Below are positions 33,574-36,113 of a stretch of 45,466 nt of DNA, piece after piece. Every line of letters starts with the position of its first letter. The first letter of the stretch is position 1. A program made the position numbers and the translations under genes. The notes below the pieces were generated by a model that ran no database searches, had not been told where the DNA came from, and was given only the letters and a program-made list of their open reading frames with translations. Source of the stretch: Ignavibacteriales bacterium. GTDB lineage: Bacteria > Bacteroidota > Ignavibacteria > UBA10030 > UBA8401. The stretch covers positions 7,748 through 53,213 of the forward strand of contig JACPGG010000041.1 in the NCBI GenBank assembly GCA_016182545.1, read 5' to 3'.

Positions 33574-33604
33574 TTGTTTTCAAACCGTGTTGCAGTATTT
33601 TTTG

Positions 33605-33678
33605 TGATCCCGGGGCGATTCGAACGCCCGACCCACAGCTTAGAAGGCTGTTGCTCTATCCAGCTGAGCTACGGGACC
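33605..33678 (-). tRNA. tRNA-Arg (anticodon TCT)
   Basis: Complete 74-nt cloverleaf on the minus strand: acceptor GGTCCCG paired with CGGGATC (one G-U pair), D stem GCTC/GAGC, anticodon stem ACAGC/GCTGT around loop CTTCTAA, T arm GGGCG-TTCGAAT-CGCCC, and discriminator A. CCA is not encoded. The anticodon TCT reads AGA/AGG arginine codons. The first 23 nt of the gene are also the 3' end of a GIY-YIG nuclease ORF, whose stop codon TAG is tRNA nucleotides 21-23. Two degenerate copies of its 5' half lie upstream. Confidence 0.97.
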
Positions 33679-33910
33679 AAAACTGTTTTATATATTCCTT
33701 ACCTACGCCGGATTTCAATTCCTTTTCTCTCATTCTTGCTTCAGATCGTGATTGAAATTCTTCCGTGAATAACAATATCCACGGACGGTAGCCTTTTGTT
33801 GATTTTGTTCGTCCGCCATTGTGTTCTTTAATTCTCTTTGCGACATTTTTTGAGAATCCAACATAGAATCTAAAATGACGAACACTTTTCAGAACATAAA
33901 CAATAAACAT
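33656..33910 (-). CDS. small GIY-YIG nuclease ORF nested between tRNA-Arg and its 5'-half copy
   Basis: 84 aa. The GIY-YIG fold of the small UPF0213/YhbQ type shows VYV (4-6) and YVG (16-18), with R26, H30-N31 and E62 as likely active-site residues, plus KGYRPWILLFTEEFQSRSEA. The A of its ATG (33910) is the last shared nucleotide of the upstream tRNA half-copy (anticodon-loop position 37). Its last codons, read as WSRSSAG-stop, are the tRNA-Arg 5' end. The frame stays open upstream through the tRNA remnants to 34111, giving peptides such as GPVAQLD. No Shine-Dalgarno is obvious. It appears to be a mobile, homing-like endonuclease gene targeting the tRNA anticodon loop; inference from geometry. 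Confidence 0.78.
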   Translation of the reverse strand: MFIVYVLKSVRHFRFYVGFSKNVAKRIKEHNGGRTKSTKGYRPWILLFTEEFQSRSEARMREKELKSGVGKEYIKQFWSRSSAG

Positions 33911-33968
33911 AGAAGGCTGTTGCTCCCTGCCTGCCGGTAGGCAGGTATCCAGCTGAGCTACGGGACCA
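33910..33968 (-). repeat. degenerate tRNA-Arg 5'-half copy (nt -1 to 37) with 20-nt palindromic insert
   Basis: Duplicates 33641-33679 of the intact tRNA-Arg gene without mismatch except for one 20-nt insertion. The copy ends at anticodon-loop position 37 (the base 3' of the anticodon TCT), exactly where the GIY-YIG ORF begins. It has no 3' half and cannot make a tRNA. It is best read as the displaced original 5' half of the target tRNA after an insertion that supplied a new one. Confidence 0.9.
33926..33945. repeat. 20-nt palindromic insertion in the tRNA half-copy
   Basis: CCTGCCT, 6-nt centre GCCGGT, AGGCAGG: a 7-bp perfect stem. It is absent from the intact tRNA-Arg and splits the copy at the 3' edge of the D loop. 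Its sharp boundaries show it was inserted after the duplication. It resembles short GC-rich palindromic repeats dispersed in other bacterial genomes. Confidence 0.88.
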
Positions 33969-33983
33969 TTGAATAAAGACATA

Positions 33984-34055
33984 CAATCCAGTTGAGTTCC
34001 GCGTGCTTTAAACGCGGAACGAAATCCGCCTTTGGCGGACTGAGCTACGGGACCA
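33984..34055 (-). repeat. second, older tRNA-Arg 5' fragment split by a double-hairpin insert
   Basis: On the minus strand the tRNA 5' end GGTCCCGTAGCTCAG (34054-34040) is followed by about 43 nt of inserted hairpins and then CTCAACTGGATTG (33996-33984), which resumes the tRNA with two mismatches. The hairpins are TCCGCC-TTT-GGCGGA (34025-34039) and GTTCCGCGT...ACGCGGAAC (33996-34020, 7-nt loop). CTCA occurs on both sides of the insert, like a short target duplication. This remnant is more diverged than the copy at 33910-33968 and so probably older. Confidence 0.75.
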
Positions 34056-34191
34056 ACGCAATTCGTATTCAATATACGAAAACAGGAAAATCTTTCAAAA
34101 GACTTTTGCACCTATTACTGCATTCGTTTACTTTTTTTTGTATCCACCGTAGAACTTCCCTCGATGATTAGCGATGGCGATGTTAAATTCT
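34056..34191. other. short intergenic region, nothing recognised
   Basis: 136 nt between the outermost tRNA remnant and the methyltransferase stop codon. No hairpin with a T-run, no ORF with ribosome-binding site and no further tRNA-like segment is visible. It is also the boundary where the sequence becomes strongly AT-rich. Confidence 0.4.
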
Positions 34192-35031: not shown

Positions 35032-36113
35032 TTAATTACTACAGACAAGAATATCAATCTTGTTAGATATTGCTTCATTATTTAGAATTTTAATTAAATC
35101 AATTTTTTTCTGATTAAATGTCGTCCTATTCGATTTTATAAATCTATCAATTTGACCCTTAGAAGCCGGAAGACTGATTTCACCTTTAATTTTACCGGTT
35201 AACTTTAATCTTGTTTTAAATTTAACGGACTTTCCATTTAGTATTAAACTATCCAGATTCGAAAAAAGAATTAGTTTGAAAAGTCCATCTTTTATATCAG
35301 ATTCAGATGGTAAGTTGCTTGTGGTAGAATTTTTTGATTCTTGTATGATATAAATTTCATTTTTCTTGTCCTTAAAAACTTCGTCAGCAGTGAGGTGGTA
35401 TACTCCACCAAGGAAATTTTTAATATAGAAAATCGCTTTGTCCCCATCGGTGAGACTCTCTTTTTCATGTTCAGTTTTACTTTCTCTTTTTGATGCTTCG
35501 TCTGATCTTGATAACGTATGCTCAGCAAATTTATCTATTGAAAATTTATTTTTAACCATAAAGGTTCTCAAAACAGATTTATGCTTTTGTGACGGGTGCA
35601 TTCTAACTCGTGTTGATCTTGCGATCTTCTCATAAGCAGAGACCGCTTTGTCGTAAATTATTTTGAATTCATTTTCAAAATGATATGTATTCCAGTGCAT
35701 TGCTGACAGCTTATAGTTAGAAATCTCTTTTAATTTTTTAAGATATAAGCATTGTTCAGTTTTTGATCTGTAATAAAATCTCCATTTTTTTCTCCAGATC
35801 TATTTTTGTTTCTAACGGCTGTATCGTGCCACGCAAGAATAATATAAACATTCAATAGATTCATCCAAGAATAAGTTATAAAATTTATTCTATCATTGTT
35901 TGACGTATCATTACCTGGATATGAGCGTGTCCTTTTTGGTGTGACCCATTTTGAATATGCTAATGTGTCTGTTTTTGATAATCTCACAATACCATAAGAG
36001 CTGGATAGATTGATATCGAAAGATTTAAAATCATACTCAGAAATGTTTATAGGAATAAACTTTGGGCGGTACGTTATATTTTTTATGAATCCAGTGAATG
36101 ATAATATAGTCAT
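35032..36113 (-). pseudogene. restriction-endonuclease-like gene frameshifted at an A6 tract
   Basis: Two ORFs make one protein of about 359 aa. The first (36113-35730, 127 aa; AAGGAA before the ATG) ends ...DQKLNNAYILKN-stop. The second frame runs to 35032 and is already open upstream as KKLKEISNYKLSA before MHWNTYHFENEF. Adding one A to the A6 run (T6 at 35734-35739 on the plus strand) restores a continuous frame. The C-terminal part has TADEV ... IYIIQESKNS, a PD-(D/E)xK-like D...E-x-K pattern, and DGLFKLILFSNLDSL. I recall relatives with about 25 more residues between RTRSYP and NDRINF, so an in-frame deletion is possible too. Partner of the D12 methyltransferase; likely inactive or phase-variable. 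Confidence 0.7.

Follow-up and report, generated by a model that had tools for sequence, protein, structure and literature searches.

SegB is described in a primary report and a review as a free-standing GIY-YIG homing endonuclease of T-even phages (PMC13096335; review PMC2988022). The primary report states that SegB cuts within tRNA genes, gives RAWTSGAAC as the motif, and describes tandem amplification via short homology between the 5' end of a tRNA and the 3' end of the nuclease gene (PMC13096335). The mORFs of fungal mitochondria, first found in Allomyces atp6, occur in atp6, atp9, cox2 and nad3 (PMC3630166). Each is an endonuclease ORF that comes with a copy of a host-gene end; this carried end completes a functional hybrid gene, and the native one stays on the downstream side (PMC3630166). 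Group I introns with homing endonucleases occur in the anticodon loops of bacterial tRNAs (PMC3984707).

The DNA analyzed here, called the window, is a 45,466-nt stretch from an Ignavibacteriales bacterium (GCA_016182545.1, contig JACPGG010000041.1, positions 7,748 to 53,213). It contains a GIY-YIG ORF between an intact tRNA gene and a displaced copy of the tRNA 5' half. We place the probability that the ORF and the adjoining tRNA half constitute a minimal, intron-less, tRNA-targeted selfish element of the homing-endonuclease kind at roughly 0.7. Comparison of related loci shows units that lie inside tRNA genes on the tRNA strand, with the intact tRNA on one side and the displaced half on the other. 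We infer that the GIY-YIG protein cuts tRNA genes and that the units spread by homing. The nuclease would break a tRNA gene of its own kind that is still unoccupied, and an occupied copy would serve as the repair template, writing in the ORF plus the tRNA part that keeps one gene intact. The old half would stay behind, the 5' half in the window and the 3' half in the mirror form. Hairpins interrupt the displaced half at positions that perhaps mark or block the cleavage site, and the survivors would be only those insertions that leave the tRNA intact. The association with tRNAs, the rebuilt halves, target tracking, patchiness, tandem arrays, catalytic conservation and the SegB precedent all argue for this reading. 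The intact tRNA beside the ORF should still be a target of the nuclease, which is a point against it.

Layout of the tRNA-Arg(TCT) locus

The minus-strand order in the window is a probable promoter, a 5' piece (A), a displaced 5' half (B), the GIY-YIG ORF and the intact tRNA-Arg(TCT). An earlier annotation made without database searches (the sequence-only reading) had placed an intact tRNA beside a GIY-YIG ORF, and ARAGORN, Rfam and Pfam confirmed both. The tRNA (33604..33678, minus) is called by ARAGORN, is evident in the sequence and scores 66.8 bits against the Rfam tRNA model; the 84-aa endonuclease ORF (33656..33910, minus) matches PF01541 with E 6e-15. Half B corresponds to tRNA nt -1 to 38 (33910..33968, minus), and nt 1-38 of the intact tRNA are its duplicate. 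The sequence-only reading had described a 39-nt tRNA stretch that occurs twice. All 39 bases (-1 to 38) do recur, but the copy is not continuous: half B is split after nt 22 by a 20-nt palindrome, CCTGCCTACCGGCAGGCAGG, in its D-loop (33926..33945, minus), whereas the neighboring tRNA-Arg is intact. The count of two was wrong, since a further 5'-end copy lies upstream at 34054-33986.

This third copy of the tRNA 5' end is piece A (33986..34054, minus). It consists of tRNA nt 1-15, the hairpin TCCGCCAAAGGCGGA, TTTCG, the hairpin TTCCGCG..CGCGGAA and then CTCAACTGGAT, so the tRNA sequence is interrupted after nt 15 by two hairpins. These two hairpins make up its predicted fold (z -3.7). Upstream of it, TTTTGAAA .. 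CGTATATTGAA (34066..34100, minus) is probably the original tRNA promoter, which would now stand ahead of the displaced pieces. TATATT motifs like the one in this promoter also occur 5' of other tRNAs in the genome.

Both ends of the ORF are where the sequence-only reading had put them. The ATG begins on the last matched base of half B, which is linear tRNA nt 38 (Sprinzl position 37), and nt 21-23 of the intact tRNA serve as the stop codon. No intron or intein encloses the ORF, which is alone between tRNA pieces; no inverted repeats were seen flanking it in the window sequence. A search of the ORF for a group I intron or other structured RNA with Rfam at a lenient threshold found none. This result bears on an RNA-level device, in which an intron-like anticodon-loop insert would be spliced or processed from the tRNA precursor. 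The window junction is at the canonical tRNA intron position, as such a device would have it. The idea has almost nothing to commend it overall, because Rfam detected no group I or other intron family even at that threshold, a complete tRNA is present, junctions elsewhere vary widely and a hairpin interrupts the displaced half. Insertion in the anticodon loop, as originally proposed, fits the window junction but is not the rule; other junctions fall anywhere between about nt 13 and nt 82.

A D12-class adenine-specific DNA methyltransferase gene (PF02086; 34192-35031, minus) adjoins the element. Behind it is an unassigned 222-aa ORF (35032-35700), and the two are perhaps a restriction-modification pair.

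Occurrence of the unit at tRNA genes

The arrangement recurs in the same genome. Two more of its GIY-YIG ORFs are at tRNAs: the one at tRNA-Leu(CAA) is preceded by a displaced 5' half, and at tRNA-Ser(TGA) the intact tRNA is followed by the ORF and then a displaced 3' half. Hairpin-bearing half-copies without an ORF accompany Arg-ACG (twice, in tandem), Arg-TCG, Met, Val-TAC, Asp-GTC, Ala-CGC (both sides) and Ala-GGC, the Asp and Ala pieces being identified by eye. Many tRNA genes of this genome are clean, for example Phe, Lys, Thr and His. The tRNA-Ala(CGC) locus (G000:C160:3778-3920; L129, L268) has half-copies on both sides with hairpins, short linkers and no ORF, and reads as a minimal double-sided unit.

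Homologs were surveyed with the window protein as the query, and tRNA adjacency was not used for selection. Matches were obtained in 45 of 60 relatives at E <= 1e-10 and, at E <= 1e-13, in 69 genomes of a 297-genome sample of the phylum. A same-strand tRNA was located within 150 nt of 137 of the 200 distinct family ORFs, 62 preceding the tRNA and 75 following it. The tRNA was 151-700 nt away for 27 ORFs, and none was found within 700 nt for 36; array members, contig ends and other subclades are among those of the 36 that were inspected. In the first set, whenever a tRNA was within 150 nt, the nearest one shared the strand of the ORF (88 cases, against 0 on the opposite strand). Copies of the tRNA 5' end were detected upstream of 52 of the 62 preceding ORFs and copies of the 3' end downstream of 62 of the 75 following ORFs, with some of the missed copies being contig ends or decayed pieces visible by eye. 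There are two mirror forms: displaced 5' half–ORF–intact tRNA, and intact tRNA–ORF–displaced 3' half. The units occur at 13 tRNA amino-acid classes. Each measures about 300-450 bp and encodes a single protein, the GIY-YIG nuclease. The arrangement is far above chance at other tRNAs of the genome, in the sister genome G001 and across the phylum. Outside the phylum, tRNA pieces flank the ORF at four loci (L013-L016; Patescibacteria, Zixibacteria, Omnitrophota). A pattern scan of viral contigs gave no relative, tblastn with the window protein gave only three weak matches in phage, and there was no plasmid match.

The expectation of the sequence-only reading that other GIY-YIG ORFs would be tied to tRNA ends was overwhelmingly borne out by this survey. 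Restoration of the 5' half describes the window form; about half of the family restores the 3' half instead. The suggestion that the coding sequence supplies the tRNA 5' end is narrower still, because the two overlap in only about half of the 5'-restoring cases, and there the tRNA, mostly its D-arm, merely provides the ORF stop codon. The central proposal, an intron-less GIY-YIG mobile gene with a replacement tRNA half that abandons the old half, is strongly supported by the tRNA-end association, the phylogeny and the patchiness.

Two other origins are addressed by these data. The intact tRNA–ORF–3' fragment form resembles attL/attR, as expected of an integrase-borne island at a tRNA att site that has shrunk to one ORF. 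Such a remnant is highly improbable: the ORF is the only gene of the unit with no integrase, 316-450 bp units repeat head to tail, tRNA islands do not usually have the 5'-restoring form of the window, hairpins are present in the half-copies and the ORF lineages track the tRNA. Chance or an assembly artefact has a negligible likelihood. The window assembly is fragmented into 205 contigs, but the same structure in single-contig genomes and at about 138 distinct tRNA loci already contradicts this explanation.

Occupancy is patchy among close relatives. In the relatives searched, tRNA-Arg(TCT) is clean in most, has the ORF in G000, G001 and G017, and has ORF-less half-copies in G012, G021 and G036. 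Within genus g3, tRNA-Ala(GGC) is occupied in G003, G016 and G018, has only a half-copy in G017 and is clean in G011. G021 has one 46-nt unit more than G019, in which a linker joins a hairpin to tRNA nt 1-15; for an ORF-less unit, the two genomes are a direct empty/occupied pair. The 46-nt unit rebuilt the tRNA 5' end in G021, which means that the ORF is not needed in cis. ORF-less half-copies are common in the window genome and its relatives, a counterpoint to the homing reading. The sequence-only reading had counted half-copies in relatives without the ORF as evidence against mobility, and that finding was made in part, in the window genome as well as in relatives. Such half-copies can be relics or non-autonomous units, so the mobile-element reading is weakened and not overturned.

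Single-contig genomes contain tandem arrays of 97-100% identical units. One array has five exact 450-bp units, each comprising the ORF and a hairpin-bearing 3' half of tRNA-Leu, and the units repeated head to tail range over 316-450 bp. A separate stretch, L191 (G110:C34:5700-10400), has at least 8 tandem GIY-YIG ORFs with no intact tRNA nearby in the fetched sequence.

The extent of homology differs between loci. At most loci the homology breaks off a few nt or less from the mature tRNA end (median 2). It continues for 27-150 bp at 20 of the 62 3'-restoring loci, some of which are tandem arrays, and at some 3'-restoring loci the shared sequence reaches into the flank and terminator. A simple target-site duplication was rejected as the whole story because homology mostly stops at the mature tRNA end. 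Homology that ends near the tRNA suggests a donor with other flanks, and homology that runs into the flank suggests local duplication; both may occur. The rebuilt and displaced halves are mostly identical, and a foreign origin of the rebuilt half therefore cannot be shown.

Target tracking was measured on the nuclease tree as the number of changes in tRNA amino acid. The tree of 182 domains has 25 changes compared to 92 after shuffling. Reduction to one ORF per genome and anticodon (134 rows) gives 28 changes versus 85.1 +/- 2.5 shuffled, and shuffling within host family gives 26 versus 79.7. Host family on the 134-row tree requires 80 changes versus 95 shuffled. Nuclease lineages follow tRNA identity across host families and classes, and do so far more than they follow host family. 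The tree is built on just 76 columns, and few of its branches are well supported; the contrast is nonetheless large. Long vertical persistence at one locus would likewise cluster ORFs by tRNA. A non-mobile alternative is a tandem tRNA duplication that trapped a resident nuclease gene, which was then inherited vertically, perhaps with a housekeeping role. Some duplicated stretches run 27-114 bp past the tRNA end as local duplication would, and G000 and G001 have the element at the same tRNA. Patchiness within a genus, the weak host and strong tRNA signals on the tree, the fact that every first-set ORF near a tRNA was on its strand, the two mirror forms and the 13 amino-acid classes nonetheless make this history very unlikely.

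Hairpins and the nuclease fold

Inserts in the displaced halves are located mainly in the D-loop, anticodon loop or T-loop, or replace the whole anticodon arm. A perfect stem of at least 5 bp is present in 101 of 120 internal gaps of half-copies. At least 91 of the 221 detected half-copy chains have one or more internal hairpins (stem >=5 bp); the figure is a minimum, as the search misses short outer pieces. The displaced halves of Ser(TGA) and Pro(CGG) have the anticodon arm exchanged for a different hairpin. A near-identical palindrome at tRNA-Arg nt 22/23 is shared by the window, G001 and the Arg elements of other families. In several families, tRNA-Asp elements have a TCCCGA..TCGGGA hairpin at this position. 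These shared palindromes indicate that where a hairpin sits, and of which type it is, tends to go with the lineage of the element. Identical 70-bp stretches persist at L035, L072 and L086, so breaking recombination cannot be the only reason for the hairpins.

The 15-mer hairpin TCCGCCnnnGGCGGA occurs 20 times in the window genome and 0 times in a reversed control. At L261:1501, L262:1501 and L269:1501 it is nested in the loop of a longer terminator-like hairpin. Distant GIY-YIG ORFs of the window genome (L009, L010, L011, L012) lie between the arms of extragenic palindromes such as TGTCATTGCGAGG.., TGTCATGCCTGCGAAAGCAGG.. and similar sequences.

The 84-aa protein has the catalytic pattern Y5, Y16-x-G18, R26, H30, E62, and these positions are nearly invariant in 152 homologous ORFs. 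Comparison of the G000 and G001 ORFs yields pN 0.21, pS 0.72 and a dN/dS of about 0.1, with pS near saturation, and points to purifying selection on the ORF. The AlphaFold2 model (pLDDT 90) has a UPF0213/SLX1-like fold. The nearest solved structures are 1ywl (4e-6), 1zg2 (1.5e-5) and SLX1 (2e-4) by sequence, and 1zg2 followed by SLX1 by fold. The protein is closer to UPF0213 and SLX1 than to I-TevI, another counterpoint to the homing reading. SLX1 is a structure-specific repair nuclease that has SLX4 as its partner. We know of no mobile role assigned to UPF0213 proteins and, unlike the window protein, of no tie between UPF0213 or SLX1 and tRNA genes.

The hairpins, the ORF-less half-copies and the SLX1/UPF0213-like nuclease leave room for a possible structure-targeted mechanism. 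An SLX1-like GIY-YIG nuclease would act on hairpin or cruciform DNA. Both the small palindromes, as non-autonomous elements, and the ORF units, as autonomous ones, would insert at the loops of stem-loops, whether of tRNAs, terminators or extragenic palindromes, and tRNA rebuilding would be a by-product of a mechanism that duplicates its target. It is favored by the closest solved structures, by the existence of ORF-less rebuilding units and by the hairpins of displaced halves, which mainly occupy tRNA loops or substitute for an arm. Hairpins outside tRNAs are inside the loops of 14-16 bp stems at 3 of 15 sites, where the null frequency (stems >=8 bp) is 0.0045. The more copies of TCCGCCnnnGGCGGA a genome has, the higher its GIY-YIG count tends to be (Spearman 0.53, p 1e-5, medians 2 vs 20), but the correlation is uncorrected for relatedness, and genomes such as G003, G004 and G050 have ORFs with 0-1 copies of this hairpin, the only type counted. 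The clustering by tRNA identity, even by anticodon, requires recognition beyond generic structure. We consider the structure-targeted mechanism unlikely as a replacement for homing; it is compatible in part with the homing reading and may be the same system seen from another side.

One GIY-YIG subclade also bears on this mechanism. It is not at tRNAs, and its ORF lies between 15-nt inverted repeats such as ACCCCGTGAGATAAT / ATTATCTCACGGGGT. Its members, with ORF coordinates given in the direction of the ORF, are L092:907-1170, L093:1436-1699, L095:1491-1769, L104:1491-1727, L109:1018-1275 and L177:1243-1506, and inverted repeats at the ends were seen in these loci only. At least 3 are inside tyrosine recombinase genes. 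A non-tRNA RNA gene was rejected as their target, Rfam having found none and the repeats being in recombinase genes instead. By its organization the subclade looks like a very small unit of the insertion-sequence type whose one protein is GIY-YIG. A broader and rather unlikely proposal is that the GIY-YIG units and small palindromes are an autonomous/non-autonomous transposable pair that recognizes stem-loop DNA, inserts into loops and duplicates part of the target so that tRNA genes stay functional, the insertion-sequence-like subclade using GIY-YIG as its sole transposase.

Comparison with known mobile elements

Because tRNA genes are essential, and frequently present as one copy, an element residing inside one must spare its host without splicing. 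The units seem to manage this by bringing along whichever part of the tRNA is missing, using about 300 bp and a single 84-aa protein. Many tRNA families throughout one bacterial phylum have been invaded by them. If the homing reading is correct, these would be among the smallest selfish genes known, target choice by a homing nuclease could be read directly from nuclease lineage against tRNA identity, and families of half-tRNA relics missed by annotation programs would be accounted for. No description of tRNA-rebuilding GIY-YIG elements was found in the open-access literature, a search that leaves most subscription journals outside.

The element shares with free-standing GIY-YIG homing endonucleases its intact catalytic residues, its intron-less state, a target-following phylogeny and patchy presence. 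Its nearest precedents are SegB and the mORFs. SegB is likewise an intron-less GIY-YIG nuclease encoded beside tRNA genes. The other strand of its motif, GTTCSAWTY, is the T-loop core where many of the family hairpins sit. SegB belongs to phages whereas the window element is chromosomal, and the accessible part of the SegB report mentions no displaced tRNA half, hairpins or tRNA-specialized lineages. The group I introns of tRNA genes resemble the element in their homing nucleases and site of insertion. The window unit has no intron RNA, and its tRNA is kept by duplication rather than by splicing.

Small palindromes spread through genomes are also known as REP/RAYT and Rickettsia palindromic elements, some of which are within RNA or protein genes and are possibly mobilized in trans. 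The HUH transposase of the REP/RAYT system is absent here; the nuclease is of another family and the hairpins are in tRNA loops.

The mORFs have the same gene-end-carrying logic as the tRNA elements, an ORF with a duplicated end and the old end displaced. They differ in being mitochondrial, in targeting protein genes, in encoding mostly LAGLIDADG enzymes and in carrying C-terminal ends only, with no hairpins mentioned. The carried end of an mORF is visibly foreign, whereas the halves of the tRNA elements are mostly identical. The tRNA elements are bacterial, reside in tRNA genes and carry either end. The kind of element is known, namely a free-standing, gene-end-carrying homing element; what appears to be new is the tRNA gene as target, the existence of two mirror forms, half-copies laden with hairpins and the specialization by tRNA.
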